This document shows positions 29,107 through 64,000 of a stretch of 64,000 nucleotides of DNA, piece by piece. Each line of letters opens with the position of its first letter. The first letter of the stretch is position 1. Under the pieces are notes generated by a model, which saw only the letters and a program-made list of their open reading frames with translations, was not told the DNA's origin and did no database searches. A program made the translations under genes and the position numbers. The stretch spans positions 17,715,660 to 17,779,659 of the forward strand of contig OZ018414.1 of NCBI GenBank assembly GCA_963969595.1, written 5' to 3'. This stretch comes from Neckera pumila (taxonomy: Eukaryota; Streptophyta; Bryopsida; Hypnales; Neckeraceae).

Positions 29107-29403
29107 CATTTTTTAGGCAGTGAAGCACCGCAGTCTTTCTATTTACAAATGTTGGGATATTGCACTAACGAAGTGTCGTTCTTGCTTGGTTCTACAAGCA
29201 GTCATATGCAACCATGTACGCCTACGCTTACATCATTTTTTCTTACATCCCTCAATCTTCTTCTTGTATCCTTATATAAAGAACGGAGAATGGGCTTCAT
29301 AATTCTGCTAGATTCTGGACATCATGACCAATTCCAAGGACTGGTGTCTTAGGGGCCTTCGTAAAGAATGTTATGCTGATTCATTGGTGTGCTGCTACTC
29401 ACA

Positions 29404-30000
29404 GCAATTGATGAGATGCTCATGGTTGTGATGCAGAAATGTTTCAGAGATCATCCCTCAACAAGCGTGTTGGCACAAGTCCTGGCCAGAAAATCCTAGT
29501 GAGCGAGCGACTGAAAGCGTATCAAGAGGCAGGGTATCGTCATTGTCATACGGATTATGCAGTCGTGGTCAAGTCTAAGTAATAAGCTCCAACTGCGATT
29601 TTCTATTCCAGCACTTGCGTGTTCCAAACCTAATATTCAGGTTGTTGTTTGATTCACACAGTTCTGTCGTGTTCTGTGAAGAATCGACATTCGACAATGC
29701 ACTCTAGGATCTCCAAAACCACGTCCAGCAAGGTAAGTAACATTCCTAGGTATTCGAACTCATGGCCGTATTTTAAGGTGGATTTTTTCTACTGTTGACC
29801 TAGGATCGGAGCTTTTGGTAATTTATTCTATGAAGTTGCCTCAACCTTATGTTAACTTTTGTAACCCTGCTCATAATGCAGCACACGCACTCATGGATGA
29901 GATTTAAAAACTGCTGAGTTAAGCAAAATGGAATCATGTGCGAGGATTTAAGCACCTGGTTGCGTACCAATGTTTTGACTGAAGGGGATGGAACTTCTGA
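29404..30000 (+). pseudogene. PAS-like relic, third copy
   Basis: The block equivalent to 7839-7969 lies at about 29414-29590; here the reading frame KAYQ continues into GYRHCHTDYAVVVK, which the palindrome arms have lost through an insertion. The 121-bp middle exon is at about 29612-29732 (after TATTCCAG, before GTAAGT) but holds an in-frame TAG. The last block near 29880-29965 is strongly decayed. Clearly non-functional, but it helps recover the ancestral exon layout. Confidence 0.4.
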
Positions 30001-32050: not shown

Positions 32051-32497
32051 CTCAGCTATGTACGTTCATGATGTCATTTTTGTTCTCAGTTTGCGTGCTG
32101 CACAGTACTTACAAACACTACGTATGTAGCAAAAATAGCGAGTGATTGAATTTCGAAAGGGACATACACCGTTACCTGCTAAAAGCAGTATGATCACGTG
32201 GTCTCCTGGGCTGATTTCATGGTCTTACAAATCTTCACTCTGCAATACTCCATGGAGGTATCACTGTAGTTTGCTAAGTACACGGGGACCTTGTTCTAAC
32301 ACAAAACATCGCGAGAGGAGCGGGGAGAGGAAAAGTCCAAGACGAGCGTTCTGGTCGTGTTGTCCTCACTAAGAACTGACTTTAGAGTGCTCCATCCTAT
32401 TTGACTGTTTGAATGTAAAGGAATCTAACTCGATCTGATTCAAGTCACTCTGCAGTTGGAGCCAGCGCCGTTGCCGCTTTCTCTGTAGCTAGCACGG

Positions 32498-33247
32498 TTA
32501 ATTACGTCGTGTATATGCCGATGCGAAGGCCAATAACCGTCCGATACAATGGTTTTTGTCCAGCGCATGTGTTCTTGGTGGTAATGTTCTTTCGCCTGTG
32601 CGCCGCATCTGTTCCTCATCGAGCACCTTTAAAAATTGTTCGAAGGAAACATTAACACCTGAGTGGAGATTAGAGTATCGTGCAAGGCTATCGGCATTTT
32701 CGTGTGTGAGTTCCACATCCAATTTGGAAAAAGCATGGCTAAAGCCGAAAGTCGTGAAACCTAGCTCTTTACCGGCATCAAGAACTCCGAAAAAGTCCTC
32801 AAGAGGATCTCGGACTAACTGTCCCTGCAGCTGACGTTTAAGTTTGTGCGCACGAATTGATTCCATAAGCTTAAAATCCTCAGCGAATACGGTAAATCGT
32901 TCAAAGTCTAAGGCACCATTCTCGTCAGCATGCCCTGACAGCTTCAGCATGTCGCATAGCCCATCCGCCGTAACCTCAGATGCCATTCCCAAATGGTGCA
33001 TCAAATACCAAAGTTTTCCAGCTTGGATAGCTGTGGCTTCGAGATCTGCACCAAGAAGAAGAAGTTTCTGAAAGCAAGTCCTGCACTCATAGTGGTGCAC
33101 GGTCTCAGTAGTCGGCGGTGCGGAAGTCGAGGCTTGCGGCACAGGCTGTTCTACGAGAGGTTGCTTGCCTTTGTCATCGTCATTTGGAATACGTACTTGC
33201 GATTGCGATTCAGAGCGCAGTTCGTCATCGTGGTGAGGGGTAGTCAT
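32498..33247 (-). CDS. EF-hand-like protein, diverged third copy with shortened C-terminus
   Basis: Starting at ATG 33247-33245 (MTTPHHDDELRSES) this gives 249 aa. Most of the 263-aa arm protein is aligned without gaps, including the loop HADENGALDFERF (unchanged) and VSFEQFLKVLDE. Differences are concentrated in residues 55-90 and 130-175. The C-terminus differs: an altered stretch after AYTR ends the protein at RRN, and the following residues of the arm copy are lost. Conservation of a long frame despite heavy divergence suggests it was under selection; whether it still is cannot be said. The three upstream ~400-bp repeats are also kept. Confidence 0.6.
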   Translation of the reverse strand: MTTPHHDDELRSESQSQVRIPNDDDKGKQPLVEQPVPQASTSAPPTTETVHHYECRTCFQKLLLLGADLEATAIQAGKLWYLMHHLGMASEVTADGLCDMLKLSGHADENGALDFERFTVFAEDFKLMESIRAHKLKRQLQGQLVRDPLEDFFGVLDAGKELGFTTFGFSHAFSKLDVELTHENADSLARYSNLHSGVNVSFEQFLKVLDEEQMRRTGERTLPPRTHALDKNHCIGRLLAFASAYTRRN

Positions 33248-33357
33248 CGAGTATTCACTTGCTGTCAATCTGAATACGACCAGTAAAATTTAAAGCAAGC
33301 GTGGCAGCTACCGAAAACTAGGAACTCGGTTGAAGTGAGTTTGACCGACACTTTGCA

Positions 33358-34560
33358 GTACTATTGATTAGAATCGGATGCATGAGATTGTCCTGTGCTA
33401 CATCCTACCAACGTCGAAGAATGCTTTCTCGCATCCAAAACCAAGAAGATTGCACAACTTCACCAAACAAGTTAAATCACCTTCAGAGAGATTCTGTACC
33501 TGCCTTAGTTTCTCTCCAATCTTATTCGTTTCAAATCACCGTGGACAGAATTTTCAACGGCGCCTGCAAATTCTTGGTATAATAATTTAGGCTATGATAT
33601 AATCAAATAACAATCAATGCAAACTTCATTTCTCCAGTCTATAAATTATCCGAATAGCTCAGATCGAGAAACAAAAGATTATTTAAATCGCCTTAGTTCT
33701 GTTGTTGTGAAACAGACAGTACTAAAATCAACAACGATCATTTCGCCATAGTCCATTCTCTGCTGCACTGTATAGACTACCTACCTAAAGCTCAATGTAG
33801 AAATTGATTTCAACACTATCGATCAAAATCGCACATATCTCGCATCGGAAACCAAGAAAACACCACAAATCATCCAAAGTAGATGCAGCGTCATTCAAGA
33901 AAGATTCTGACCGGGTTATATATCTCTGGCGATCTCCAGTCTTGTTCGTTTCAAATCTCCACAAAATACTGTCCACGCCTGTAAACTTTTTGCCAGAAAT
34001 TAGGCCATCATATAATCAATTAGCAATCCAACTTCATTTCTCCAGGCTGAAAACTCTCCAAAATATTTCAAATCCAGACTACAGAAGGTTATTCTCATCA
34101 CCTCAGTTCCATTGCTGCGAAACAGTATTACAACCTACAGCGATCATTTCACCATAGCCAATTCTCTGCCGCATCGTGTAGGCTACATTACGCAATCCTC
34201 AATGTAGAATTTATTGATCGATCAAAATGGCATGCATCTCGCATCTCAAACCAAGAAGACTCTACAACTTGTTCCAAAAAACATGCAGCATTCAAGAAAG
34301 ATTCTGTACCGGATTATATATCTCTAGCAGTCTTCTGAATCTTTTTCGTTCAAACCTCCATAGAATTATTAAACGGCGCCTGCAAACATTTTGTGATAAA
34401 TTCGGCCATGATATAATCAAGCAGCAATCAAAGTTAACTTCATTTCTTCAGCTGGAAAACTCTCCAAATATCTCAAATCCAGCATACATAAGTGCCTTAG
34501 CTCGTTTGTTACAAATCAATTTTCCTTATGACAATCATTTCACCATTGTACCTTGCAAGC
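33358..34560. repeat. Three diverged ~400-bp tandem repeats upstream of the third EF-hand-like copy
   Basis: Same unit order as 9766-10960: CGATYARAATYG-type starts near 33363, 33818 and 34215, with AAGAAAGATTCTG, TTTCAAATC and CGGCGCCTG blocks. Open frames in this stretch (for example 34227-34634) are repeat translations, not genes. Confidence 0.65.
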
Positions 34561-34888
34561 TGCAAACGCAAATCTCGACGCAGAAGTCCTATGTCAAATG
34601 TGAGCCTGACAACCTCCGCTCGGATCCTCACTAAATGATTGCTAGAGCTGATCTCAAAACTTAAGGCTATGGTGAGCAGGCCATGACCATGGCCGTTCGC
34701 TTCAATGTTGCTGCTTCAATTTGGATAGAGTGTCGATGTATTTTGCGACCTCTTTAATGTCACATTGATTTCTCTAGTATCACATCCTAGGGTTCTCACT
34801 ACCACACATTGCTATTTTGCAAAAGGTTGCATACAAATGTGATAAAAAGAAGTATGACAAGTTTAAAAAGTATTATCAAGTACAACTC

Positions 34889-43893: not shown

Positions 43894-44239
43894 CTAGTTC
43901 CAGGTCAACAGGTTTGCCATGTCAATGAGTTCAATAGATGAATTTATATTTAATAGAGTTTCAAACCAACAAAAGAAATTTACATTTCTGGAAGCAAGTA
44001 TAGAAATTTGTTGAATCTTATAAGTCATGTCTACTGGTACGCAAAGCAACATATATTTGTTAGTTATTGTTAGATTATTCATTACTTTCTAGTAGTGCAA
44101 TGAGGCTGTCCAATGAGGTCATTTGGCCAACTCATCAAGGCCGTCCTATCTGCCGCACATGAGAAGGTTGTCCACTGAAAGCTCCCAATTTTGTTATTTA
44201 GGACTCAAGTTTTCTTTTCTTCAAAGCTTTGCAGTTTAA

Positions 44240-44630
44240 GGGGGAATGCTGACATGTGAGCATGGAGCGGTGAGCGGTGAGCGGGAAGCGGGGATTGGTG
44301 AGCAGGGAGTGTCTGAAATTTGGAAGAAAAAGAAGAAGAGAAAAATTGATGAAAAATTGGATGGAAATTGGTGGAAATGTGGGCAATTTTTGCTAGAATA
44401 AAATCTAGAAATTGGGCTGAAGAAATAAAGAAAAGTGGATGGAGGAGTGGGATGAAAGTCTGGAAAAAAATTTGTTGAAAATGGATGGAGGAAATGGATG
44501 AAAGTCGTGGGAATAATGGATGAATGTATTTTTTGAAATGGATGGAAGTCATTCAAAAAATGGATGAATGTACCCTTAAAAATGGATGGAAGTCATTCAA
44601 GAAATGGATGAAACTTGCTTGAGCGGTTTT
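44240..44630. repeat. Simple and short tandem repeats (GGTGAGCG, ATGGATGRA)
   Basis: At 44260-44310 GTGAGCG/GGAAGCG units repeat; at 44410-44615 ATGGATGGAAGTCATTC-like units repeat about five times. The minus-strand frames over this stretch (44198-44556) are purine-strand artefacts rich in Ser, Phe and His. Confidence 0.6.
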
Positions 44631-46692: not shown

Positions 46693-46939
46693 TCATGACA
46701 AACTATCCTCACTGTCTGCTGCCGTCAAGTCTGAATCTATAGCACAGTCATCTACATACTTCAGAACGCGAGGATGTACCAAACCTGCTCTAGGAGCTGG
46801 TCTAGGGTTTAAGGCAACTAAATCCCTAGCCACTGCGTCTGCGTATATAGGGAGCTGAAATGATTTTGGTGGGCTTGGGAAAAATCCAGCTCTAGCAAAA
46901 AATGGAACGTGTGTGACTTTGGTCACTTCTTGGATTTGC
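46693..46939 (-). CDS. Exon K: C-terminal exon
   Basis: After GGTGTGTAG the exon encodes QIQEVTKVTHVPFFARAGFF, PPKSFQLPIYADAVARDL and an acidic tail ending DLTAADSEDSLS, then TGA at 46695-46693. It follows the methyltransferase-like domain and is probably a solvent-exposed tail. No polyadenylation hexamer is obvious downstream. Confidence 0.55.
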
Positions 46940-47025
46940 CTACACACCAATTAATCACATATTAGATCACATGAATTTCATGTTCATTGTGTACCATCAA
47001 AAGAAGATCTTAAAGGGAAACTTAC

Positions 47026-47157
47026 TTACTGAATCGGTTGGTCTTCACAATACGTTGGATTGGTACTTCTTCTTCATCCAAATCTTTAACTGCAACTTCA
47101 GGGATTGATGGTTCAAGACACAGAACTATTGATGCACGCATGACCGGAGCAATGAGG
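47026..47157 (-). CDS. Exon J (3' part), separated from its 5' part by an insertion
   Basis: Across the 3388-bp insertion the frame resumes exactly once one target-duplication copy is removed: DKAIFDA on one side, LIAPVMRASIVLCLEPSIP on this side, ending NRFSK before GTAAGT (two bases of the Lys codon). Without the insertion exon J is 208 bp and its phases fit exons I and K. Confidence 0.6.
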
Positions 47158-48184
47158 GCATTTGTCGCAGCACAGGGCAAGCAATTTCCCAGTTATACTA
47201 CCAAAAACCACTTTAAAGTATAACAAAGTGACTCTAAAGATCGAACCCGCGAGATTCTGTGAAGTAGATAGCCCTATTTGGTCTCTAAGCTAAGTCAGTA
47301 CCTATATTTCCTCTTTCGGTTCCAACACACAACCGGAAATACAACAACACCCAGAACTCCAATCAGACCCTTTCTTATTTCTCCGATCCGGTCTACGTTC
47401 TGATTGAGTCTGATCACTCTCATCCGCTCACACTACTACCCGGTTTAGTTTTACCTCTGTTTCACCATCAGAGGGATTGCCCCTTGTTTTTGAGAGCGGC
47501 AGGCCCGCCGCTCCTTCCGTGAATTATAGTGGCTGAAGACCCACTTCTTCTTCCTCCAATTCTCTACACTAACCCGGACCCGGTTTGATCCTTCACAACA
47601 ACCCAGAAAACTTCTCCGGATCACTGGTCACACAAAGACCCCCCGTACGGCCCTTCCATACTACAACGACCTTGGCGTTCCGTTCCGTCTGTGCGAAGCC
47701 AGGCGGCTGCAAGAGAACCCGTCCGTTCCAACATCTACTAAAGTTCTTCCGTTTGCCCCAAATGAGGCGGCGAGATCTCTCAGGAGATCGGACACTCAAC
47801 CGGATTTCACATCCAGGAGTTCTAGCGCGACTAAGGAATCCCTCCCTATCCGCCTAGCCTAACAACGGTTGTCTCGCTCGGAATTCTAAACTCTAGAGCT
47901 GCTGAGGAACTGGAATCCCCTCCCAACGCTTACGCAACCCGCTCACCTGCACATAAGACCGAAAACAAACGCGCCAAAGGGAGAAATCACACCTACATCA
48001 GCGCGCGCCTTCCTAACTCCTCACTCCACGACCCTGCCTCACACGGGAGAGACACACAACAAGTAGCCAAGAGAAGACGTACGCGAAAATAAGATGAAAG
48101 AACTCCCAGCTCCCAAGCGGGGGCTGACTTATATACAACTTGAGTACAAAGCAAAAAGGGACCTCGAAATCCGCGCTGGAAATT

Positions 48185-48272
48185 CGGACCCGATCCTAAC
48201 AAGCCAGACCGGATAGTCATCCGATCCGGTCCTAACAAGCCAGACCGGATAGTCATCCGATCCGGTCCTAAC
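48185..48272. repeat. Two ~41-bp tandem units rich in CCGGAT/ATCCGG inside the inserted element
   Basis: The phrase CAAGCCAGACCGGATAGTCA followed by TCCGATCCGGTCCTAA occurs twice in tandem. Similar ATCCGGTC units recur at 50279-50340. Confidence 0.7.
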
Positions 48273-48311
48273 TAACTTACAAATAATTTACATTCCTACT
48301 AATTTCCTATC

Positions 48312-49973
48312 CTACTCTCCAATTCCCCCACCTAGCGTAGGACTCCTAGGCTCCTCGGGCAGTTGATTGAAGACATCCGCCAAGTTCCGGCTCCGTTCAC
48401 CGGCAGCTGGATCCGGAAGATCTGACTCGGGCGATGAATCTATCTGGATTGGCTGCCCCGTTCCAGGTCTTTTGAGACTCTTCCGTGACTCGGGAGTATG
48501 ATCCTTGCGCTCACCCGGATTTGATCCTCCTGCTGGAAACAAATCCGGCATCGAAATGTCAGAGAGGTGGATTTCCCGGGAAAACAAGGACCCTTTCAGC
48601 TTCTGACTGCTGACGTCCATCCGGTCGGCCGCCTCTCGTGCTGCCACTAAGGATGTTTCCACCCGATCGGTGAAGTCACTGAGGATTTGAACTATCTGGG
48701 AACCGGATACCTTCTTCTCCTCGTGCACCCCTTGGTCAAATAAGGCCGCCTTGACTGCGGCGGTTCCGGACTCTCCAAGAGTGTCCTTCATCGACTCAGC
48801 CACCTTCCGGGTTGCCTCCGCCATCTCCCGGACTGCTGCCTTGTCTTCCCTGAGGGTGACCATGTCCGCCCTCAGAGTATCGACTTCCTCCTGAAGTCAA
48901 CGGATCTCCGTTTCCTGTTTCCGATTCTCTTCCGGATCGGCCAGGAATTGCCCCACCTTACCCGGCAAATCGCTATAGGCCGGTGCGCCCACTAGTTCAG
49001 AGATAGTGGTCAAGGTCCTTCGCTTGACCTCCTAGTCCGCCCGGATTCCGACCAGGACAACCGTTAACTGGTTGAACGGGTCGTTCGGATCCTTGAGATC
49101 CGGCATCTCAACATCCGGTCCCTGTTCTGGTGTGGACCGGGGGTTTGACGGGGGTCTTCTCTTATGAGGAGGAGGCGTCTTCTGACGCTTCCTCTGTCGA
49201 GACGGCTCTTCCTCTTCCTCTTCTTCCATCTCGGGTTCGGATTCGGTCTGCTCCTCTAACTCGTCATCCGAACCCAACTCCCCATACTTCAGGATCGATT
49301 CCTGAACACCCCACGTCTTCTCCTCAGTAGGAGTGAGAAGTTGGTTCCGCTGGTACAAGTGGAAAAGGTAGGGACTCAAAGGAGTGGCCCTACTCTTTCC
49401 AATCCTCGTCACCAACTGGGACACCAGATCGGAAAAGATCCGGGCCTAGTTCACCTTCCGTTCCCCGCTCAGGGAACCGAAAATGGTGTTGTCGAGGGTC
49501 ATCGTCACCCTCGTCAGCTTCTCCGGGTGGACGATCGGAACCAGAAACTGAAGGAGGTTACGATGCCGGTCGTTCTTACAATCTGCGACCGCGTACCCGT
49601 CCTTGTTACTCGGTTCCCCATGAAACTTGTCATGGATGAACTCGTCCTTCCGCCTGGCCATACCGGAACCTCCCATCCGGAAGTTGTAAACTTCCCTCCA
49701 CCGTTTTTCTTCCCATTCGGTCGGGCGGCCACGGAGAGTGTTGTCGAACTCGTTCGACACCTTGCACTTTATCTCCCTCACCATCCGCTCCTCATGAAAC
49801 CCCCAGGGTTTATCCATCAGGACGAGGCACCCCATCGCGTTGAGATCCTCTACTAACTCAGTCCGGGCCGGTTCCTCCATAGGAATGACCGGAACTATCT
49901 TCCGGAGTTTAATATCGGAGGAGGAGTTGGGAGCGCCCGGTCTGGCCTTACGCAGCTGAGGCATGGACACCAA
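48312..49973 (-). pseudogene. Single ORF of the inserted element (gag-like or plant transposon protein), three stops
   Basis: One continuous frame of about 554 codons interrupted by TAG (49448-49446), TAG (49034-49032) and a TGA near 48896. The N-terminal half (KLRKIVPVIPMEEPARTE, WEEKRWREVYNF, IVHPEKLTRVTMTLDNTIFG, ATPLSPYLFHLYQRN) resembles the unnamed proteins carried by plant gag-only or transposon-like elements. The middle is acidic then basic (EPEMEEEEEEEPSRQRKRQK). The C-terminal part (TLREDKAAVREMAEATRKVA and onward) is a predicted coiled coil. No reverse transcriptase, integrase or zinc knuckle is seen. All three stops fit C-to-T changes (CAG or TGG-type and CGA codons). Confidence 0.55.
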
Positions 49974-50278
49974 ATAACCACTGGACCCTTACCGATTGCT
50001 ACCTCACACTCTCCTAGCCGTACGTCCCGTTCTTCACTTTCTCTCGTCCGATCTCAACCGGAAGGCACTCACAAAACCTGCAGCCCACACGTTCTTTACT
50101 CTTCTTACACTCTCAGACACACCCAGCCGGAAGCGCACATGCATCAATGGCTTTGGTGCGGACAGAGGCGAGAAAGCGCTCAAGGTCAGCTCCAGAGCTC
50201 AAGGGAAGTAAAGGAGTGAAAATGAGGACGACCAGCCCTTATATACTCTCAGGACCCCTGGCACGTCATCATGACCTT

Positions 50279-50340
50279 TTTCCGGTCCGGTCCATATGGA
50301 TCCGGTCTTTATGGATCCGGTCCATATCGATCCGGTCCAT
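50279..50340. repeat. Short GGATCCGGTC-type repeats inside the inserted element
   Basis: Four near-copies of a ~16-bp unit containing ATCCGGTC separated by TATATGG/TTTATGG-type spacers lie just upstream of the TATA motif of the element's frame, so they may be promoter elements. Confidence 0.6.
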
Positions 50341-50550
50341 CCCTAATCTGTTCTGAGGTGAAGTCCGGATAAAATTTCGCTCCTGAATACTAACATTCTG
50401 ATCGGAACAGATACAGTTTTCTCCTTACTGGATTATCGCTGCCTATCCGTAGTTTTCTTCTGTCCTTTTAACCGGATACGGATGCTAACTACCGGTTTCC
50501 GTTCCGTTATTCAGACAGTTAGAGAAAAACCACAAATTCTGGTTGCGACA

Positions 50551-51446
50551 GCATCAAATATAGCTTTGTCTTCCCCAAAGGCTAAAATATGACGACGAGC
50601 AGCACGGCAAGCTTGAATGCTTGAACCTGAAAATATACAAAACAAACAAAGAAAACGCTGCATAAGATATATGACCAAGTTCAAGCATGTAATCTAACAT
50701 TGTGGAAATAGTAAAATGGCAAGCACACAATACCTATAGATGCTGTGCAGTCCACCACAACGTCTCCTGGTTGAGTGAGCCCTTCCACAAGCATCTGCAT
50801 GAACTCCCGAGCCTTCTCTCGGGGACCACGCCATGGTTTTGGCCCATTCATGCTCACGTCTTCTTTATTGCAGAAGTTCTGCAAAATGTCATCTCGGCCC
50901 ACCGTGACACCCATCGCTTGATGGGATGCGACAAATTGGAAAGGAAATTCCAAATCGGTCTTAGGTCCACATTCCTTGACCACAAGAGCAATGGTGAAGT
51001 GCATAGTCTGCAATACAAATGAAGTTAACACTGTCACTATAGTGTAGGTGATAATTAAATGGAGACTTAAATGGGGGTAGAGTGCTTGTTACCGTCTTTG
51101 TTGGATTTGCCGGTTTTGTCAAATGGAGATGATTCATGCTAGTCCAAGTGACAAGGAGTCTAAATTTGTATTCGGTGCAACATCCAAGGAGGTGGCTTCT
51201 GTGCTATCGAGATTGGAAGGGATACATCACCAGTAAGGGCGCGCCGTCATGAAGGTACTCTTGAGCAAAGTCAAACACGGGTTGCAGGTACTCAGTAGGA
51301 TTGAAGTCATTCCACTTCGGAATTGGTTCTGGTGGAGCCGAAATCGAAGGCACATGGAGTCCTTCGGGAACATCTACAATGATGAGGTCCACGGCTGACT
51401 TCGCGATCATTTTCCCTTTGAAAGATCGGTCCTTATCACAGGCATG
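50551..51446 (-). CDS. Exons H-J(5'): methyltransferase-like domain, motif IV then motif I
   Basis: Exon H 51446-51093 encodes VDLIIVDVPEGLHVPS (51392-51345), the position of the catalytic (D/N/S)PP(Y/F/W) motif; here it reads DVPE, lacking the aromatic residue. An in-frame TAG at 51206-51204 follows VMYPFQSR; the frame continues into CCTEYKFRLLVTWTSMNHL. Exon I 51007-50734 encodes HFTIALVVKECGP and later GPKPWRGPREKAREFMQML, then QPGDVVVDCTASIG; exon J begins SSIQACRAARRHILAFGED. That is the motif X/motif I arrangement of beta-class N4/N6 amino-methyltransferases (compare GDxVLDPFxGSGT), but the first Gly is Ser. Catalysis is doubtful. Exon J is cut by an insertion at 50551. Confidence 0.6.
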
Positions 51447-51573
51447 CTGTATAAGACATGAAAATGAAATAAAATTTGATTAAAGAAATTATACAGTTAT
51501 TGACTGAGAACATGTGTAATGTCATAAACCAGTAATTCATATATATGGAGGCCAGATCAATAGAATTTCTTAC

Positions 51574-52231
51574 CATTTCCAAGAAGGCCTCCACATCAGC
51601 CATGGCTGTAGAATTATTGGGCAAATTACCCAAGGACAAGTTGAGGATGCATTCATCAATGTCAGCCACGGGTGCCAAGTTCATCAATGTAGGTGTAAGC
51701 CCATGTACTAAGCGCTCCTGAGGGAGGGAGAAACCCGAAGATGTGTCCTTCATGTCCGCTGCACTTATCTAAGGTTCATGAATAGGTATCTCAGCCTTCC
51801 TCTTTGTGCCCTTCTTCTTGGCCTTTTCCTCCTCCTTCTCAGTTTTAGATGCCATCCGCTTTTTCTTGGTTTCTTCCGTTTTCTTCTTCGCATCCTCCCA
51901 TCTCCCCTCCTTTTTCTTGTCGGCTGCCCCCCTTCGCACAACAGCCTTAGCTCTAGCCTCTGGATCTAGTCCAGTGAACTCGTCAAACTCTGGCTCTTCG
52001 GGTGCGGCGGATTGAAGTGTGTTGAAGAGAGTCTCCTCCTCTGGTGGCGTGGTTCCAAAAACACACTCGAGGTACCACGGGCATGCCTGCAAATGCGATG
52101 TGGTCCAATTCTTAATCTGTGAGTCAGAGAACATGCAATCTGGGGAGGTCCTATCTAACCAGGTAGTCAGAAATGGGGGTAGGTCCGTCTTCTGGATGGC
52201 TTTCTTTGCGTACAACTCACACTTGAAATAC
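51574..52231 (-). CDS. Exon G: linker with Lys-rich segment and an in-frame TAG
   Basis: Starts after TTATTGCAG with the base that completes the Arg codon of exon F, then YFKCELYAKKAIQKTD. The middle (about 51830-51960) encodes a strongly basic, Lys/Glu-rich stretch (KKKTEETKKKRMASKTEKE and KKKGTKRKAE) that could serve as nuclear localisation signal and coiled linker. TAG at 51771-51769 interrupts the frame, which continues in phase with ISAADMKDTSSGF to FLEM before GTAAGA. The continuity on both sides argues for a nonsense mutation rather than a gene end. Confidence 0.55.
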
Positions 52232-52394
52232 CTGCAATAAAAGCAAGTTCAAGAGTGTTGTATCCAATCAGATTATAGGGGAAAAAATGAAATGTAGAAG
52301 CTCCACCAAGACCTGGGAATTTAACTAGCAGTCAAGACAAACTAGAAATGAACAAAATGGAGATGAAAGCGTCTCTCAAATCCCTAGAAATTGT

Positions 52395-52410
52395 CTTCTG
52401 GGCCCGAGAG
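52395..52410. repeat. Isolated relative of the 16-bp palindrome, in the intron
   Basis: CTTCTGGGCCCGAGAG followed by GACCT, preceded by AAATTGT; this corresponds to the AATTGGTCTCTCGGGCCCGAGAGGACTC context of the array at 60.1-64.0 kb. Confidence 0.6.
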
Positions 52411-52679
52411 GACCTGCATTAGGTGGCTAACGATCTGAAATTGGAAAGAGGTCCTAAGATTCATGCCAAGAAATTGGGAGACAATGGACAGAGAACTAGC
52501 TAATCATGATCCCGGTTATCAAACACAAAGGGGAATGGGTATTCTCTTGAGGATCAAAAATTTATTCATAAAGGCCTAAGTTGTCAATATCGAACGTCCG
52601 GGACCAATTCACGTCCAAAATCCGGACGTCCGAACGCGGTGGGTAAAACCGTCTTTAAAAAAAATTACCTTAGGTAATT

Positions 52680-53045
52680 TGGACGCCGCGGTCGGTCTGA
52701 CGACCGCGTTGGTTGACTGACGGCGGTTAGTCTGACAACCGCGTCGGACGGCAGTTAGTTTGACGACCTTGTCGGACGACTGTCGGTTTGACGACCTCGT
52801 CGGACGGCTGTCGGTCTGACGACCGCGTCAGACGGCTGACGGCGGTTAGTATGACGACCCCGGCGACCGCTCCAATGTGACCGACCGCCCGAACCGGAAA
52901 ACCCAACTGAAAAAGCCATCCAAACCTGACACGGTAGTTTTAGGGTACGCCGACCGCTTCGGACGCCTGCCGGGGCCGACCGCCTCAGACAACCGCATAC
53001 ACCGACCGGCTCGGACGGCCGACCGGGCCGACCGCCTGAGTTGAA
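52680..53045. repeat. Left GC-rich array (GGTCTGACGACCGCGTCGGACGG units)
   Basis: Units of about 24-33 bp built on GTCTGACGACC, GCGTCGGACG and GGCGGTTAG are repeated at least five times at 52690-52860, then give way to scattered CCGACCG motifs up to 53045. Strong contrast with the surrounding A/T-rich DNA. Frames called here are repeat translations. Confidence 0.7.
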
Positions 53046-53216
53046 TAGAGAACAAGACCGATCGTGGGATTCTACAGTTCGCAATAAATCTTGATTCGTT
53101 TTTATATTGGATGCTTCCTTTAAGAAGCATCCAATGTAGAATTCATGTAGAACTTATGTGTAAGTGTGATTCATTTTCTTTTTTCACGCTTTAATCCTCT
53201 TCCCTAAATAGTATTT

Positions 53217-53240
53217 CCTAAACCCTAAACCCTAAATCCT
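53217..53240. repeat. Interstitial telomere-type repeat
   Basis: CCTAAACCCTAAACCCTAAA followed by degenerate AAATCCT units. This is the plant telomere repeat (TTTAGGG complement), at most two and a half perfect units. Confidence 0.8.
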
Positions 53241-53333
53241 ACACTTTAAATCCTAATTTCAATGCACTGCAATGTGAAACAATTAAATGTTTCTTTAGTT
53301 TTTATTTCAGATCCAATGGAAGGACCAATTGTA

Positions 53334-54265
53334 TTAACCCCTAGAGGACCAAGGTGATATTCCTATCAAAAAACACTAAAAAATGTCATCGTTATTGCAA
53401 AGAGTAAAGAATCATGAGAACTTTTTTTTTTTGCATATCTAACTATAAGATCTTTTCTTTAACTAGTATATGAATACGTGAAAGAAATTTCAAAAAATTT
53501 GACTATGTAGATTATAAGATATATGCATTTAGAGTGAAGAATATAAGTTTTTTGGCACCTTGCTTAACTATATTTTTTTGCTTTGAATCTTTTTAGTTCA
53601 AATTTCTAACACTAATGATTTGGATTTTGTCTTTCTTTACATTAAGTACTTGAGTTCAGAATGTACCAAAAAAAGTTAGGAAAAAAACCACTTCATTTTC
53701 ACTCATTACAAAATTGTTAAGTAGAGGTGAATTTAAGATGGAAGAAAAAACGAAATTGTTAAAAACTTTTAGATGGAATTGGATCACAATAATCTCAACA
53801 GTGAGATTGTTGTAGCAAGGAAATCTAAGATTGTCTAACAAATTCCTTGGGAAAATTCTGAAAATAACATCCAAAAGTGAAACATCAATTTTTTTTTGAC
53901 CACAGATTCTTCTCTAAACCCAAAAACTAAGATTGTGAAGAACTTTCTCATTATTAGTCCAAATTGAATGAAACAAAGCTTCACATGTAGACAAAAATGT
54001 AGTCTTTGAGAAACAAATTTGAGGATAAAATTAGTTTCACTTTCTCTTAATATTTTTGGTGCGGTCTGCCAAAACTTGTTTTTGCATATTGTGTCATAAC
54101 TCTAACTTCCGGGCATCAATTAAACTAAAAATTAAATATCCTCAAATTTCTCGCAAAATCACACAAATTCCACAAATCACAAAAATTTCACTTCATATTG
54201 AGACCATAGGTATTTGCTTGACTTAGTCTGTCCCCCAAGGGGACAAGCGGCCTTCTAGGGATTGA
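53334..54265. mobile_element. TTAA-flanked TIR element, copy 5 (924 bp), nested
   Basis: TTAA (53334-53337) then CCCCTAGAGGACCAAGG; the right end is GGCCTTCTAGGGA then TTGA (54262-54265). The interior matches copy 1 (AACTATAAGATCTT, CTAGTATATGAATACGTG). It lies within the 4.87-kb intronic element, so it was inserted later or was carried along. Confidence 0.65.
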
Positions 54266-54289
54266 AAGGAAAATGAACACTCTACTTCG

Positions 54290-56590
54290 AACGTTATTTG
54301 AACTACCAAAACTCAATTGCATTCAAATTTCCTTTATATAAGAGTGTTTGAGGTGTCCTACATATCTATCTGAAGTACAACTCAAGCACACTTTACTTTT
54401 CTCATTCCACTTCAATCATGATTCAAACTATAAATTATATTCAATTTGTTTGGAAATTTCACAAGTGCACTTGAGGTGTGCTTGATGTGGTCTTTACATA
54501 TAGGATGAAACGTTTATCTCACAAGTAAAGCGCACCATTGCTTTTCTCATTTAATTGGAATCAAAATTTTCCCCCAAATTGTATAGGAAAAATATATTTT
54601 ACAAGTGATGAGCAAACAACTTTGCTTAATAAACCTCAAGCTCACATAAAACACACATTGGAAAACCACATCTAATAAAATCAAGTCACGAGTTTTTTGT
54701 TTTCAAATAAAATAGAAATACTAAAGACATGTAGATAGACTTGAAGCACACCTCAATCACAACGTTTTTAATTTTAATGCATTTTAAACTAAGAGAGAAT
54801 TTTTCATATGAACTTAAAGTTCACATGTAGGGTACCTTACTTTCCACCCCTTCAATCATAAATTGAAATAAATATAATTCTTGTTCTTTATAAATTCAAG
54901 TACAACAGAAATTTTAAGAATGTGCTTGAAGGTTGCTTGTTTAGTTGAAGTAAACCTTAAGCAGTTAAGCATGGTAGGAGCACACTTCAAGCACTTTATT
55001 ACTTAAGTTTAATTTCTAAACCAAAAAAAATTTCAAATTAAAATTTTTTTAATACAAAGAAATCTCAGTAGTAGGAATGTGTTTGAGGTGAACTTATGGT
55101 AGACCTCAAACGCATTTGAAGCCATTTCATTTATACTTTAAATTTTGAAAAATATTTTTTTTTCAGGAGTTTCTTCTTTCAAAACCAGTGAGAATAGTAG
55201 AAACTTACGGTAGGTATATTTCAAGTACAGGTCATGCACATGTGAAGCATACTTCAAACATTTTTTAATAAAATTTAAAATCTTGAGAAGAGGATTCTAT
55301 TATCTTCAGATTTATTTAATTTGAAATGAATGAAAATAGTGAAAATGTATACTAGATGTGCTTGAGGTGTACCTGAAGCATATTTCAAGCATTTGATGAT
55401 TTGATATTGAATTATTCAATATCAGATTTAAATTTAAAATCATTTTTAGGATCCAAAGTATTTTGAATAGTAAAAATGTGCTTCAACCTTCAGGTGAGCT
55501 TGAAGTAGACCTGAAGCACACCTTCAGCTTTTTTATTTATTTTTGAAATTTGATCTTCTGGTCTAGCTTTCTTTCAAAGCAATGAAAATAAAAGAGACAT
55601 ACTTTACGTATGCTTGAGGTCTTCGCAAAGCGTACTTGAAGCAACTTGTGATTTTCTTTGGTATGTATTGTAAAAGATTTCAATTTGAAGTTGTCTTTAT
55701 AATCCAACATAATTTAAACGGTACAAATGTGCTTGAGCGCTTCAGGCATGTTTGACGTCTATCTGAAGCAGACCTCAAAAACTTTTTTTTTTTTCCCTTT
55801 TAGATTTGAATTTTTTTTCGGCTTCTTTATAAAGCAATGAAACAAGATAAAGTATACTGCCCAATCGACCTTAGGTCTACACTCTACAGTCTACTTGAAG
55901 CACGCTTCAACCTTTTCATGATTTAGATTCGCATTTTTATCAGAAGAATTCAATTTTTTAAATAAAAATAAAAATTATTCAAGGTATCTTGACAAGATGG
56001 TATTTGCTTGAGATATGCTTGAGCTAGACCTCAAGCACACATCAATCACTTTTACTTACGCTTTAAATTTTGGAAATAAGCATTTCATTTTAAAATTTTT
56101 CATCATTTCAAAGCAATGCAAAAACAAGAGATGTTTTGTAGATGTGTGTGAGGTCTACTGTAAGCACACTTCAAGGACCTTATGATTTCATTTCGTATAT
56201 GTAGTAGAAGATTTCAATTTTGAATTGCTTTTATTATCCAACCATAAGATAATAGTGGAAATGTACTTCAAGTGTGCTTCAAGGTTACTCCATGCAGAAC
56301 TCAAGTGTTGTTAATCCAAGTTAAATTTTTCATAGCTTCTTATTCCAAGGTAATTTCAGCAGAGGAAGTGCGCTTCAGGTGTGCTTTATGTGTTCTTGAC
56401 ATGAACCTCAAGCATATCTCAAGCACACCAAAGCATTTCTAGTCCAATTTGAAATTTTTGAAGAACGTTTTTAATTTTTAGGTGATTGTTTTTTAAAGGC
56501 AATTATATTAGTGGAAGTGTGCTTTAGGTGCGCTTGATGTTTACCTCAAGCACATGTGAAGCACAAAGTCATTTGAGACTGAATTTGGAA
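54290..56590. repeat. ~130-bp satellite with CTTGAGGT / ACCTCAAGC signature
   Basis: A GTGCTTGAGGTGTGCTTGA-like block followed by a complementary ACCTGAAGCACACCTCAAGC-like block recurs at roughly 125-135-bp intervals (for example near 55080, 55212, 55345, 55476, 55595, 55728, 55850, 56000, 56130, 56260, 56370 and 56510), separated by A/T-rich filler. About 17 strongly diverged units. Each can form a short hairpin. Confidence 0.65.
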
Positions 56591-56689
56591 CTTAAAAAAC
56601 TTGTTTGAACTTTGAACTTTGAGTTCCTTTTTGTCCCCTAAGATTTCATTAGTACAACTGTGGTGCATTTTTGCTGGAGGTTTATTCTC

Positions 56690-57320
56690 CGGACGGATTT
56701 CCCAACCGACCGACCGATTCCCCGATGGCCGTCCACACCGCTCGGACGACCGCTCGAGAAGCCGACCGAAAAAGCCGACGGACCAAGAACCCGACCGAAA
56801 GCCTGACCGAAAACCGGACCGACCGAAAACCTGACCAAAAATCGGACCGACCGAAATCCAGCCTCAAAACACGACCGAAAACGTGACCGAAAACCTAATC
56901 GACCAAAAACCAGACCAAAAGCCCGACCGAAAACCTGACCGACCGAAAGCCTAACCGAACGATCCAAAACCAGACTGAAAACTCGACCGAAAACCCGACC
57001 GAAAACCTGACCAAAAAACTGACCGCCCGAAAACCCGACCGAAAATCAGACCGACTGAAAACCAGACCAAAACTGAAAACCGGACCAACCGAAAACCTGA
57101 CCGAAAACTTGACCAACCGAAGACCCGACCGGAAACTTGACCGACCGAAAACTTGACCAACCGAAGACCCGACCGGAAACTTGACCGACCAAAAACTTGA
57201 CCGACCGAAGACCCGACCGAAAACCAGTTGCCGCGGCCGCAGTCCGGTTGGGTTTTCGGTTGGGTTTTCGATCGTTCGGTTGTGTTTTTGGGTCGGTCGG
57301 ATTTTCGGTCGGGTTTTCGG
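56690..57320. repeat. Right GC-rich array (CCGACCGAAAACC units)
   Basis: A 10-22-bp unit, consensus (ACCGACCGAAAACCTG)n with AAA/TTG variants, runs almost unbroken from 56810 to 57220, then flips to its complement (GGTTGGGTTTTCGGTCGGG) at 57240-57320. The Arg/Ser/Phe- and Pro/Lys-rich frames here are artefacts of the repeat. Confidence 0.8.
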
Positions 57321-57656
57321 TCGCGGAATTTACCATGTAGGTAAAAAACGTAAAAAGTGAATGTCACAAGACATTATAGGGGCAGCGTCCCCGGACTCTA
57401 GACGTTCGTCCGGATGTTCGGACGTCCTGACAACTCAGATAAAGGCCTATGTACCACTTCATGCAACCATGACAAGTTCCAAAAATAGCAAATTAAATCA
57501 ACAGATGACCAATACAAACAACAGAAAATGAAATGAAGTTCAGAACCACTAAAGAATATGTACAATGCAAAGCATGGAAAAAGTCCTATGGTAAACAAAC
57601 ACTAGGACTATCAACTACTGTTGATTGCAAAGAAATTCACGCACATTCCACAATAC

Positions 57657-58542
57657 CTGTATATCAACCGCTTCACAGCCAACATGGCCCCCCTAAAGTC
57701 CTTGAATGACTCAGACTTCTTGAAGGAGTCCGATCCCTTAAAGCTACCTGTGTACGCCATGTCCCACAGCTTCGTTCTCCAACACTCAATGTATTTGTGA
57801 AGGGTTTGCGGCTCCGTTTGAACAGACATGTCGATTGGAATGTTATTCAAATGGCTGATGCTATCAAACATCTCCGTAGCTGCCTCTTCCAGCTACAGGG
57901 AAAATTGGCATGCAAATGGTGGATGAAATGTTAGCTTGTACTAGTCTACCAATACTAGGAGTGAAAGGCAAACGCAGCAATGTATGTAGAATGTAAACAC
58001 ATGAAGCTGAAATATATAGAATGTCTTATTATAGTAATATGTACCCTGGCATACCAACATGCCTTTGCAAGGAATGTCAACAGTCTATCCTCGTTAACTA
58101 GACAAGGAGGAAACCACCTGGCTTCCCGAGTCGGATTGGAGGAATTCATCCACTTTAGCCACTTAATCTTGTGTGCTGGATTGACATTGGATGTTGAAAT
58201 CATATTCAACTTCTCCAGTGTCAACTCTGACACTGCAAAAAGGTTCCAGTGCCTCTCGATCTGTAGCAATGATACAAATATTGATGAGAGAACAATTTAC
58301 ATGGACAATTGAGTAATTGCAATGGTTGAATAGAACATGGTACTCACTTCTTGTAGCCACTCGGGGCCTAGACTCGGGGCGGCCACTGACACAATTTTTG
58401 ACAGTTTTTGATACAACAGTCTTGTCGAATCTTTGATAGAAGTCTTCATTGCATTGGCTACTCCTTCCTTTGTAACTTTGGCGCCAGGCGTATCTTTGTT
58501 ATACTTACGAACTGCTTGATCAGTAGCTACAGAAATTTCTTA
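57657..58542 (-). CDS. Exons D-F: middle region, first codon a TAA stop
   Basis: Exon D 58542-58348, exon E 58260-58045, exon F 57892-57657. Exon D follows GATGTCAG and its first codon in the conserved frame is TAA, then EISVATDQAVRKYNK; a C-to-T change of CAA would explain it. Exon D ends WLQE before GTGAGT; exon E encodes ERHWNLFAVSELTLEKL and EARWFPPCLVNEDRLLTFLAK; exon F encodes helices with FDSISHLNNIPIDMS and KYIECWRTKLWDMAY and ends two bases into an Arg codon completed by exon G 5.4 kb away. I do not recognise a domain here; it is Trp-rich and helical. Confidence 0.55.
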
Positions 58543-58643
58543 CTGACATCCAAGATGTATCACGGAATTAGCTAAGAATAGATTCATTGATTAAATTATC
58601 AATTAAATTAAGATCATGAACTGATAAAGGCTAAGCAATATAC

Positions 58644-59872
58644 CTTGAAGATGAAAGACGTGAAGACCTCAAGGGGCATAGTGTACCACTTGGTTCTTGT
58701 CGTCTGTAAGCAGGTCTTAACCTCTTTGGGGCTAAGAAGCTCTTTGAACTTGTCAATTTCCATAACACCATATTTTTGAACTTGATAGAGGGTGTGCACC
58801 AGGTTTGTCTTGACGTGATAGTTCTCGGTGTGCCTGCCATACACATATCATTCGAAATTGCATGAGCATTATCAAAGCACATGCTAGTGAGGACGGGATT
58901 CAATCATGAAATTAGGAACACATAGGAGAAGACAACAAATGGAATGTTGCAAAATCATACTTGTTTATGTCGTGCATGGCTTGCATTGCCACTCCAATCC
59001 GATTCCGCGTATCCAAAATGATGGAATCCACAGCAATATGCCAATTTGGTTCGGTTGAATGAAGCCGCTTGATATGATTCATCCAAGCTATGCGTCTATG
59101 ATTTCCATCGTAGACATATAGCTTGAAATTGACCAAGTGCTTCAGCGCAGGCTGGGACACCAAATACTTGTTGAACTTGTCATTTGCCGAATTCCAAATC
59201 GGTTCCCATTCAAGTTTCTCAGCATCGGAGAATATTGCAGTCCGTCCAGCCTCATCACAAATTGATACATAAAAGACACAAGCCCCCTCCTCATATCCTC
59301 GAGTGAACTGATTCTCTAGCATAGTGAGGTCACAGGTGAGTGTCGGATGAACAATTGGCATAGGCACCATCCTGCATAGTGGAATTTTCATTCTAGAAAA
59401 CTCGTTCGAAATTAATCGTAGACCTTGGAGGATTGAAACAGTATCTAAGGTCTGGGTCCTCCGGATGTCGTCCTCCATGAAATCCTCGCAAATTCCGGGA
59501 AGTTGGTCTTCAGATATCTCGTCCATCTCCACATCAGTGCCAGCTTCCAATTGGAGTCCGGTAACATCCATTGCTGTCAGGGTTGTCCTAGAATGGTTTG
59601 CCATTGAACCGGTTTCCACAGTATTCTGTAAGAAGGCAAGAATATGTAAAACAATTAGAACTGGAAAATCCTCTCTTCACAAATGTAGTTAGAGAGCAAA
59701 AGTGACACCTAAATTTGAAACAAATGACGAATCCCACCAGACATACCCTAAACGGATGGACAGGGAGGTCTGTAGCAGCTATCGCCATGGCCCCGGATGG
59801 AGTATTGTCTTCAAGAACCTCCACTGCACCTTGCGATAGGGGATTATTAGTTTGCCTACTGACCCCCTGTCC
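58644..59872 (-). CDS. Exons A-C: acidic N-terminus and ParB/sulfiredoxin-like domain
   Basis: Exon A 59872-59747 (ends before GTATGT; an acceptor GAACAG precedes 59872, so 5' exons may exist upstream), exon B 59625-58961, exon C 58833-58644. Residues about 20-70 are acidic (EMDEISEDQLPG). From about residue 90 a ParB-like layout follows: KIPLCRMVPMPIVHPT, a long insertion, then KLYVYDGNHRRIAWMNHI at 59066-59119 (the G-x-H-R signature of ParB/Srx folds), then helices including NKHTENYHVKTNLVHTLYQV, where ParB proteins have their N-x-x-R/E-rich helix. The exon B/C junction splits a Lys codon. In ParB proteins this fold binds CTP and partner DNA-binding helices; the activity here is not predictable. 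No internal stop in these exons. Confidence 0.6.
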
Positions 59873-60131: not shown

Positions 60132-63100
60132 GTCTCGGGCCAGAGAGACCTCATGGGGTCCGCGAGTGGAGCAACAAGATTGACCTATTTGGACGCAGTA
60201 TCATCGAAAACGAGCCTGGTTTGCGTAATACTTCCACCATTAATAAGAAACATTGTTCAAATGCAACAGCTCCCACATGGATATTCTAACGGGAACCAAC
60301 AGAGATTCTGACAATGTAATGCATCTTGTTCTGACTCTAGAAATTGGTTGAGATTATATTGAATAATTTGGTTTAGGGGTTGTAATCAGTCACTGTGATT
60401 TCAAGGTCGGACCCCTTAAATTAGAATATAGACCCTCTCCCGGGACCCGAGATTTGGTCTCTCGGGTCCAAGAGGACTCCGGGAGCTGCACGCTGTTGCA
60501 TTAAAACATTCCTGCGACCAATAGCAAAGCAGTCACAGAAGTTCATCGGGGAGGATAATGACTGGAAGAACATTGACAATTTCGTTCATTAGATCATTTA
60601 GACAACAAGAACACCCTCTCCGGTGCGACGAGAATTGGTCTCCTGGGCCCGAGAGTACTCCTCGATCTGTCACTTGTTGCAACCGAAACAACCTCGCCAA
60701 TGTCTAGTTACTTAGAATAATGCAGATAAATGATATCACATTCAACTGTAAAGTTTTATAATAAGATTATCTCTTTGAAGAAGACGAAATGAAGCCGACA
60801 TCAATATGAATAAAATCCTACAACATTCGTCCGGGGATCGTTATCACTAGAATCAAGTCTACGTAATACGAATATTCTGACGTATTGGCGTTTAACAGCA
60901 GCAAATAAGGACTCGTATGTATTGGCTTAGAGTTTCCAACATTACTGACAAATTCCTCACTTGGGGCCCAAGAATTGGTCTCTCGGGCCCGAGAGACATC
61001 TGGGACCTGGATGCTGTTGCAACAATATCATTCCTCGCCAGTATAAGAAGAGCAAAACAACACAAAATCAACAGTTCATAGCCATCTGGAATATTGCTCA
61101 AATCAAGCATTGCTCTGTACAATAATAATGAAAGAACGTTCGTCAAAATCAATACAATCAAAAATATTCAACGGTGAGGATCATTACTGGGAGCAGCATC
61201 GGGAATTCGGTTCCTTGTATTCCTTAACAAACAAAAACTTCCTCTCTTGAGACCCGAGAATTGGTCTCTCGGGATCAAGAGGACTCTGGGATGTGTCACC
61301 TCATGCACCAAAACTGCCTCTCCATCATCCATATTATTCAGGACAATGGGAAATAAAGAAATCGCATTCAACTGCTAACATAAAAACCATCCGACAATCT
61401 TTTTGAAGGAAACAAAATGAAACGTAGATAAATATGAATTTAATCTTGGATCATGCGTCCGGGGATCATTATCACTTAAATCAAGATCACGAAGTGTGAT
61501 TGTTCTGATGTATTAGCCAAGACCAGCACCAGAAATGATTCGGATGTTCTGAATACAAGTATGCAGTAATCCGAAAAGGACCCTCTCCCTTGGCACGAGA
61601 ATTGGTCTCTCGGGCCCGAGAGACATCTGAATGCTGCATGCTATTGCAACGGAATCAATCCTCTCCACCATCCGAAACCAGAACCATGCCAAATCAAAAG
61701 TTCACATTCATTTGATATTTTGATCTAGACGAGCATCGCTCTGTACAAAAAGAACCATGACCGCAATCAAACTCAATTTTATCAAATGAAAACTTATAGT
61801 CAAGATGACCTCAGGAAGAAGCACTAGAATTTAGCTTCGTTAAAACAGTTAGCGAACCAAACCTACCCTCTCCTAGGACCTGAGAATCGGTCTCTTGGGC
61901 CCGAGAGGACTCTGAAGGCTATAACTAGATGCAACAAAAACTACCTGCCTAACGTGAAGTAATTAAAGACACCGCAAAAGTATGAAATCACAATCAACTG
62001 CAGTGACCTAAAATATGACAACATCATAGAGTAAAAGGAAATGTAAGCGAGATCAAAACCAAATAAATCCTAAGACATTCGTCCAGTGTTTGTTATCACT
62101 AGGATCAAGTCAACGTAATGTGTTTGTTCGGTTGTTTTTAGGGTGTAACAGCAGCAAGAAATAGGTCGGCAGTTTTGCCCTCAAGCTTCAAAATTTATTA
62201 AAAAACTCCTCTCCCGGTGCCCGAGAATTGGTCTCTTGGGCCCGAGAGACATCTGGGACCTCCATGTTGTTGCAACAAAATCAGTCCTCTCCACCATCCG
62301 AAACCAAAACCATGCCAAATCAAAAGTTCACATTCATTTGATATTTTGATCTAGACAAGCATCGCTCTGTACAAAAAGAACCATGACCGCAATCAAACTC
62401 AATTTTATCAAATGAAAACTTATAGTCAAGATGACCTCAAGAAGAAGCACTGGAATTTTGCTTCGTTGGAACAGTTAGCGAACCAAACCCACCCTCTCCT
62501 AGGACCCGAGAATTGGTCTCTCGGGCCCGAGAGGACTCTGAGGTCTATAACCTGATGCAACAAAAACTACCTGCCTAACGTGAAGTAATTAAAGACACCG
62601 CAAAAGTATGAAATCACAATCAACTGCAGTGACCTAAAATATGACAACATCATAGAGTAAAAGGAAATGTAAGCGAGATCAAAACCTAATAAATCCTAAG
62701 ACATTTGTCCAGTGTTTGTTATCACTAGGATCAAGTCAACGTAATGTGTTTGTTCGGTTGTTTTTAGGGTGTAACAGCAACAAGAAATGGGTTGGCAGAT
62801 TTGCCCTCAAGTTTCAAAATTTATTAAAAAACTCCTCTCCCGGTGCCCGAGAATTGGTCTCTCGGGCCCAAGAGACATCTGGGACCTCCATGTTGTTGCA
62901 ACAAAATCAGTCCTCTCCACCATCCGAAACCAAAACTACGCAAAATCTAAAGTTCATATTCATTTGATATTTTGATCTAGACAAGCAGCTCACCGTACAA
63001 AAAGAACCATGACCGCAATCAAACTCAATTTGATCAAATGAAAACCTATAGTCAAGATGACCTCAGGAAGAAGCACTAGAATTTTGCTTCGTTAAAACAG

Positions 63101-64000
63101 TTAGCGGACCAAACCTACCCTCTCCTAGGACCCGAGAATTGGTCTCTCGGGTCCGAGAGGACTCTGAAGTCTATAACCAGATGCAACAAATACTACCTGA
63201 CTAACGTGAAGGTACTCATCACACCATAGAAGTATGAAATGACAATCAGCTGCACTGTTCCAAAATACAACAACATCATTGAATAAAGGGAAATGTAAGC
63301 GAGATCAAAACCTAATAAATCCTAAGACATTTGTCCAGTGATCGTTATCACTAGGATCAAGTCAACGTAATGTGTTTGTTCGGTTGTTTTTAGGATGTAA
63401 CAGCAACAAGAAATGGGTCGTCAGATTTACCCTCAAGTTTCAAAATTTATTAAAAAACTCCTCTCCCGGTGCCCGAGAATTAGTCTCTCGAGCCTGAGAG
63501 ACATCTGGGAGCACCATGGTGTTGCAACGAAATCAGTCCTCGCCACCATCCAAAACCAAAACTATGCAAAATCTAAAGTTCACATTCATTTGATATTTTG
63601 ATCTAGACAAGCATTTTTATGTACGGAAAGAACTATGACCGCAATCAAACTCAATTATATAAAAAAAAAACTTATAGTCAGGATGAACACTGGAAGAAGC
63701 ACTGGAATTTCACTTTGTTGGAACAGTTAGCGAACCCAACCTACCCTCTCCTAGGACCCGCGAATTGGTCTCTCGAGCCCGTCAGGCCACTGGGCGCCGC
63801 AACCTCGAGCACTCTTTCCTCAGTCTACTGTAAATCAGCGTTACTGCTGTCCATCCCCGAAAAGACAAAAATGTTGAAGAGGAGTACACTCTCGAGGCAA
63901 CCCTTTCTGGCCCACCTAATTCACAGGAAAACCTTATAAACATTCTACATTTTAAGACCTTGAATTTCACTCTTGACGCCGGTGCAGTTCTGGTCTGTGG
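60132..64000. repeat. Tandem array, 626-bp dimeric unit with alternating 341/285-bp palindrome spacing
   Basis: Cores of CTCTCGGGCCCGAGAG (or one- to two-base variants) start at 60640, 60980, 61266, 61607, 61892, 62233, 62518, 62859, 63144, 63485 and 63770; steps are 340, 286, 341, 285, 341, 285, 341, 285, 341, 285. More diverged cores lie at 60132 and 60459. Cores of one type are preceded by TCCTAGGACCCGAGAATTGG and followed by GACTCTG; the other by CTCTCCCGGTGCCCGAGAATT and followed by ACATCTGGGA...GTTGCAAC. Upstream CCCGAGA can also pair with TCTCGGG, so two alternative hairpins exist. Outer units are the most alike (62.2-63.8 kb). The array runs off the window. Short frames inside are repeat translations. 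Confidence 0.85.

Follow-up and report, generated by a model that had tools for sequence, protein, structure and literature searches.

A ParB-methyltransferase gene inside an abundant transposon

We analysed a window of 64,000 nucleotides from the moss Neckera pumila (assembly GCA_963969595.1, contig OZ018414.1, positions 17,715,660 to 17,779,659 of the forward strand); unless a contig is named, coordinates are those of the window. On the minus strand, from an ATG at 59788 to the end of the stop codon at 46693, lies a gene with a predicted protein of about 1,095 codons, in which a ParB/sulfiredoxin (Srx)-fold domain is followed by a beta-class amino-methyltransferase (MTase)-like domain, an architecture that proved largely real. 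The gene sits within a transposon copy in minus orientation that starts at 44240, fills the window to 64000 and continues past it to about 70879 (C7:17786538); it aligns to six close copies (A–F), and both its ends were located. We are in hardly any doubt that it is the accessory gene of an abundant DNA transposon of 17.5–20.7 kb with 9-bp target duplications. The original prediction had taken 46693–59872 as the unit and as a continuous plant gene; the unit is instead the transposon, and the window copy of the gene is dead and belongs to a set of 150 or more ParB-exon matches. A transposon family was among the several options which that prediction had offered, and it is the one that the element ends, target duplications and multicopy matches support.

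The genome searched comprises 339.5 Mb in 18 contigs. Paralogues, which the original prediction had suggested looking for, were plentiful: the MTase part had 208 matches, with 140 scored among 762 candidates, and the ParB exon at least 150, with 150 scored among 443 candidates and 42–100% identity, spread over all eleven large contigs. The six close copies have sharp ends at the same sequences, 17.5–20.7 kb apart, with imperfect terminal inverted repeats. Their target duplications, determined by eye, are of 9 bp, exact in five copies and mismatched at one position in the sixth; if the end is placed differently, a 10-bp duplication is possible in E, F and the window copy. In the window the duplication is GCAGTTTAA (44231–44239), matched in 8 of 9 positions, again by eye, by GCAGTTGAA on the other side of the element, outside the window. 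The imperfect 3' terminal inverted repeat (44240–44310) extends over about 60–70 bp.

All six copies carry at their other end, on the opposite strand and head-to-head with the ParB-MTase gene, a transposase-like gene with two or more exons; it is interrupted in A, D and F, and that of the window copy, located just outside the window (C7:17782923), is broken. This arrangement recurs across the genome: among the 150 listed ParB exons, 64 are paired head-to-head with a listed transposase (150 of 592 candidates) at most 25 kb away (median distance 7.5 kb), 6 show another arrangement and 80 have none of the 150 listed transposase matches. Random placement, with the length of C10 assumed and small contigs omitted, gave a mean of 3.1 ParB exons with any transposase within 25 kb and a maximum of 10 in 500 draws. 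The transposase had no Pfam match at E≤10, including the Mutator-like element (MULE) profile PF10551, and none of the 29 MULE matches in the genome overlaps the 150 listed transposase matches (by eye). Inspection by eye found D...D...CxxH...E and CxC...CxH patterns, without profile support, which look MULE/SWIM-like and would make this a DDE/SWIM-like transposase. Because the Pfam MULE profile does not recognise the transposase, the label 'Mutator-like' rests on the 9-bp duplications and these patterns.

Some transposase copies at about 68% identity have long open frames and no listed ParB exon nearby (e.g. C10:15034443, C2:31028468, C7:11713560); the elements to which they belong may have a different accessory gene or lack one altogether. 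A single broken fragment is present four times within about 160 kb (C2:36592649, 36623509, 36673201 and 36753030; L022–L025), each time with an identical score and identical stops, a cluster that is a local segmental duplication.

Exon structure and decay of the window copy

Eleven minus-strand exons with matching phases had been predicted. All the quoted exons, their phases and the motifs are present in the window sequence, and the reading phase runs consistently from the ParB exon (exon 2) to the MTase-like exons 8–10; stops nevertheless interrupt the frame, and one assumed junction (50551/47162) is an insertion. Copies A, B and D do not conserve an acceptor at the earlier 5' boundary of exon 1, 59872, and a better start is the ATG in the context GCCATGGCG, which opens the coding part of exon 1 (59747–59788) and was found in the same context in four of the six copies with one search string. 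Exon 2 (58961–59625) encodes the ParB/Srx-fold domain with DGNHRR and is followed by exons 3 (58644–58833), 4 (58348–58542), 5 (58045–58260) and 6 (57657–57892), of which exon 4 begins with an in-frame stop at its first codon (58542). Exon 7 (51574–52231), encoding a linker and a charged stretch, and exon 8 (51093–51446), encoding the MTase motif IV region with DVPE in place of DPPY, contain one in-frame stop each. The motif X/I region (PGDVVVDCTASIG) is in exon 9 (50734–51007), and the end of motif I with the following helix is in the first part of exon 10 (50552–50626). The remainder of exon 10 (47025–47161) is separated from this first part by an inserted minus-strand element of 3.4 kb (47162–50551), with TG...CA ends and a 4–5 bp duplication seen by eye; there is no GT/AG at the assumed junction, and all six other copies are continuous at that point. 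The last exon, with the stop codon, spans 46693–46939. A further insertion of about 4.9 kb (52577–57438) lies inside intron 6 and, in the alignment, is absent at that place from copies D, E and F. With three in-frame stops (exons 4, 7 and 8), one insertion in exon 10 and another in intron 6, the window copy of the gene is dead.

Two open reading frames of the element inserted in exon 10 had no Pfam match, and the intron-6 insertion contains minisatellites at 56751–57220 and 52719–52838, made of CCGACCGAAAACCTGA-like and GACGGCTGTCAGTCTGACGACCGCGTCG-like units.

Because most junctions retain their AG/GT signals in copies A–F, the ParB half and the MTase half belong to one gene; since gene order is kept in these copies as well, we rejected the alternative of two separate genes. 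Exceptions are the exon-4 acceptor, lost in F, and the exon-8 acceptor, lost in A. Exon 2 is truncated in E, where the match to the last exon is also incomplete, as is that to exon 7 in B. Copy A has in-frame stops in exons 3 and 7, C in exon 3, and E in exons 2 and 5.

The ParB-fold domain

The bacterial ParB fold is a nucleotide-dependent clamp. A structure model predicts the ParB/Srx fold for exon 2, in agreement with the original prediction, which had placed DGNHRR in a ParB/sulfiredoxin-like setting. We obtained 195 relatives of this exon at E≤1 among 231 candidates, and in an alignment of 64 rows (the window and 63 of the 120 listed relatives) DGNHR is nearly invariant, with N175 and H176 present in every row and D173, G174 and R177 in at least 90%. 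By its position in the predicted fold, DGNHRR corresponds to the P-motif (Box II) with its conserved arginine. Profile searches recovered little: the protein has no Pfam ParB match, a genome-wide search with ParB_N (PF02195) retained 0 of 2 candidates, and the sole ParB-side match was to phrog_1033 (E 0.049). Since a profile of the ParB exon matched just two unrelated chains in the PDB (E 0.14 and 0.3), the assignment of the fold rests on the model. No relatives of the exon were found in viral contigs (two scans), in prokaryote contigs or, by tblastn, in phages, and the full-length query had no match at E≤1 among 7,992 candidates scored from 5.8 billion proteins.

A methyltransferase-like domain without its catalytic motif

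Homology to the N6_N4_Mtase profile reached E 7.6e-7 in the best family row and 1.8e-4 in a close copy; the window copy gave E 0.0037 with 17.7 bits, below the Pfam cut-off of 26.7. Matches were obtained for five of ten rows, the MTase part being held by six of the ten, and two reversed-sequence controls (typed by hand) had none at E≤1. Motif IV precedes motif X/I, as in beta-class amino-methyltransferases, so that both the amino-methyltransferase-like nature of the C-terminal part and the motif order originally proposed for it are upheld. Among known enzymes the MTase part matched DpnA (E 0.0052); CcrM could be aligned over 8–225 to 31–252, yet with an E-value of 0.73. It also matched 77 phage records (best E 0.02), and among the 20 listed, 14 carry a methyltransferase annotation, 4 are unannotated, 1 is hypothetical and 1 is a 'DNA replication/modification protein'.

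The catalytic motif of beta-class amino-methyltransferases is [D/N/S]PP[Y/F/W]. It is replaced in all 31 loci of this genome that were read, which include four identical ones and the window copy, by DVPE, DVPK, DIPE, DIPK, DVSE, DVLE, DCPE, DCPK or DCLE. Two metagenome relatives (P0001 and P0002) also have DVPE at this position. The original prediction was therefore right to read DVPE for DPPY as a hint of lost catalysis, but the loss is not peculiar to the window copy, being common to these loci and to both metagenome relatives. The ratio of non-synonymous to synonymous substitution rates (dN/dS) of the MTase part, 0.14–0.25 against three divergent copies, indicates that this domain is under purifying selection between subfamilies.

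Palindrome arrays that differ between subfamilies

Upstream of the gene, at 60132–63817, is a tandem array with 11 sites within two mismatches of the 16-bp palindrome CTCTCGGGCCCGAGAG (0.00 expected). The array lies between the accessory gene and the transposase gene and is built of 285-bp units in A–F and of 626-bp double units in the window, each unit with a conserved core around the palindrome. Computed over 106 units of A–F and 14 of the window, conservation in the 40 bases after the palindrome, which had not been selected on, was 1.04 (A–F) and 1.11 (window) bits per base; in the 40 bases before it, 0.77 and 0.83; and in farther stretches, 0.43–0.57. Genome-wide the palindrome occurs at 131 sites, and its reversed control at 0; all of the 50 listed sites (on C1–C4) are within 10 kb of a ParB exon 80–94% identical to that of the window (by eye). 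One further site, within two mismatches, is in the transposase intron of copy A (relative position −13569; L033), and B–F have one site each at a like position.

Two divergent elements from a single subfamily (ParB identity 50 and 53%) have, in the same place, a 149-bp array with a different palindrome, GTCGGATCCGAC, which occurs perfectly 3 times in one and 4 times in the other; neither contains a site within two mismatches of CTCTCGGGCCCGAGAG. An extended version of this second motif has 10 sites in the genome, nine of them between a listed ParB exon (48–53% identity) and a listed transposase (by eye), while the remaining one has a listed transposase no more than 7 kb away. What travels together is the accessory gene, the gene for the transposase and an array of palindromes, the last differing between the two subfamilies. 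An array in every subfamily was rejected as a general statement, an intermediate element having none in 1.5 kb (see below).

Relationship to known systems

Proteins joining ParB and MTase domains have been reported from transposons of brown, green and red algae (PMC12477816), and the kind is therefore already known; this answers the original prediction, which could name no multi-intron plant version. Ectocarpus Sola1-1_Ec32 (21.5 kb) is alike in domain content and layout, with a ParB-like and an N4/N6 MTase domain in a protein of 1104 aa (about 1,095 codons here), an accessory gene opposite in strand to the transposase and an element size of about 20 kb, whereas the moss element has 9-bp duplications and a transposase of putative SWIM/CxxH type rather than Sola1 (PMC12477816). 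Unlike the algal proteins, the moss family lacks the MTase catalytic motif and has subfamily-specific palindrome arrays, which the excerpts of PMC12477816 do not mention. Our literature search, whose scope did not extend to the algal papers cited in PMC12477816, found no report of such an element with 9-bp duplications from a plant-like genome, of family-wide loss of the catalytic motif or of subfamily-specific candidate arrays; among the papers it brought up, PMC12477816 alone described ParB-MTase proteins of transposons.

Other systems share parts of this organization. The VANDAL elements of Arabidopsis are DNA transposons with accessory genes and short, subfamily-differing motifs in noncoding tandem repeats; VANC binds such motifs in VANDAL21 and brings about a loss of methylation (PMC5735166, PMC10398659), a binding that has been shown for VANC and is predicted for the moss protein. 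A 2025 survey of ParB folds describes phage fusions to N6_N4 methyltransferases and gives sulfiredoxin as the commonest eukaryotic form (PMC12704722). These ParB-CTPase-fold fusions of phages and bacteria have the same domain pair, often on mobile elements, but are prokaryotic (PMC12704722), and no relatives of the moss ParB exon were found in the viral or prokaryote contigs scanned. VirB is a sliding clamp of the ParB type that loads at virS palindromes and opposes H-NS as an antisilencer; like ParB-parS, VirB-virS combines a ParB-fold protein with palindromic sites near promoters, divergent ones included (PMC10770331). It differs from the moss protein, in which no helix-turn-helix was identified. 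The bdelloid N4CMT is likewise a eukaryotic protein with a beta-class N6_N4_MTase domain, but it is an active writer of N4-methylcytosine (4mC) and has a chromodomain (PMC8885841). Finally, a plant protein described in 2005 has a ParB domain before a DCD domain rather than a methyltransferase, with no transposon link mentioned in the excerpt (PMC1182354).

Possible function of the accessory protein

The best overall explanation, to which we give about as much credence as doubt, is that the protein is a self-targeting accessory factor of the transposon, probably an anti-silencing one. Its ParB-fold domain would load on the cognate palindromes of its own element, and the MTase-like domain, devoid of the catalytic motif, would act as a DNA- or base-recognition or scaffold module and not as an enzyme. 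From the shared promoter region the protein would then spread over the element and counter host silencing, so that its own family stays active, as VANC does for VANDAL and VirB against H-NS; we know of no ParB or MTase domain in VANC. Binding to the cognate palindromes is somewhat more probable than not, while anti-silencing as the main purpose, argued by analogy, falls slightly short of an even chance. More speculative is a eukaryotic counterpart of ParB-parS converted into an anti-silencing device of the transposon, in which a ParB-fold clamp and a dead, base-binding MTase might load on the array of their own subfamily and spread, protein and palindrome co-diversifying.

Several observations weigh against self-targeting. 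No helix-turn-helix could be identified after the ParB-fold domain (no profile match), and it could be the transposase, not the accessory protein, that binds the palindromes. The intermediate element (69% ParB identity) showed, in the 1.5 kb read, no tandem array and just three sites within two mismatches of CTCGGGCCCGAG. Among the closest copies the dN/dS of exon 2 is noisy (0.23 to 2.36), and only D of the six is clean in the compared exons, yet its transposase frame is interrupted.

The alternative with most in its favour is a transposition cofactor, acting in synapsis, in pairing of ends or arrays or in copy-number control, with no silencing role. The head-to-head pairing with the transposase gene, the array shared between both genes and the palindrome site in the transposase intron would all suit such a role, which we regard as possible but rather unlikely, the array being internal and not at the termini; the change of motif between subfamilies resembles the targets of VANC, though it is compatible with a cofactor as well. 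An active DNA amino-methyltransferase marking its own transposon with 4mC or N6-methyladenine (6mA) is improbable. Beta-class homology and motif order speak for it, and modification of the element's own sequence has been suggested for the Ectocarpus counterpart (PMC12477816), but the catalytic motif is replaced in every own-genome locus read and in P0001 and P0002. As for a domesticated host gene that is multicopy by chance, the fact that selection between subfamilies keeps the MTase-like domain under constraint would fit, yet the copies have definite ends and target duplications, occur on every one of the eleven large contigs and are in many cases broken, which makes it very improbable.

The self-targeting explanation has the merit of naming a concrete, testable target site, the candidate palindromes GTCTCTCGGGCCCGAGAGAC and GTCGGATCCGAC, for transposon proteins otherwise described by domain content (PMC12477816). 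Being subfamily-specific, these palindromes would allow a direct test of whether sequence-specific anti-silencing, as in VANDALs, evolved in other transposons. The combination suggests that a bacterial clamp fold and a catalytically dead methyltransferase were recruited for self-recognition in a eukaryote.

Other features of the window

Outside the transposon, positions 1–4394 and 7175–11568 form an inverted repeat of 4,394 nt, 100% complementary and touching the window edge, which is either a recent palindromic duplication or an assembly artefact; a degenerate relative of it is found at 29109–34706. Between them, at 26072–27869 on the plus strand, adjoining reading frames for a neprosin activation peptide and a neprosin domain mark an ordinary plant-type gene for a secreted protein.

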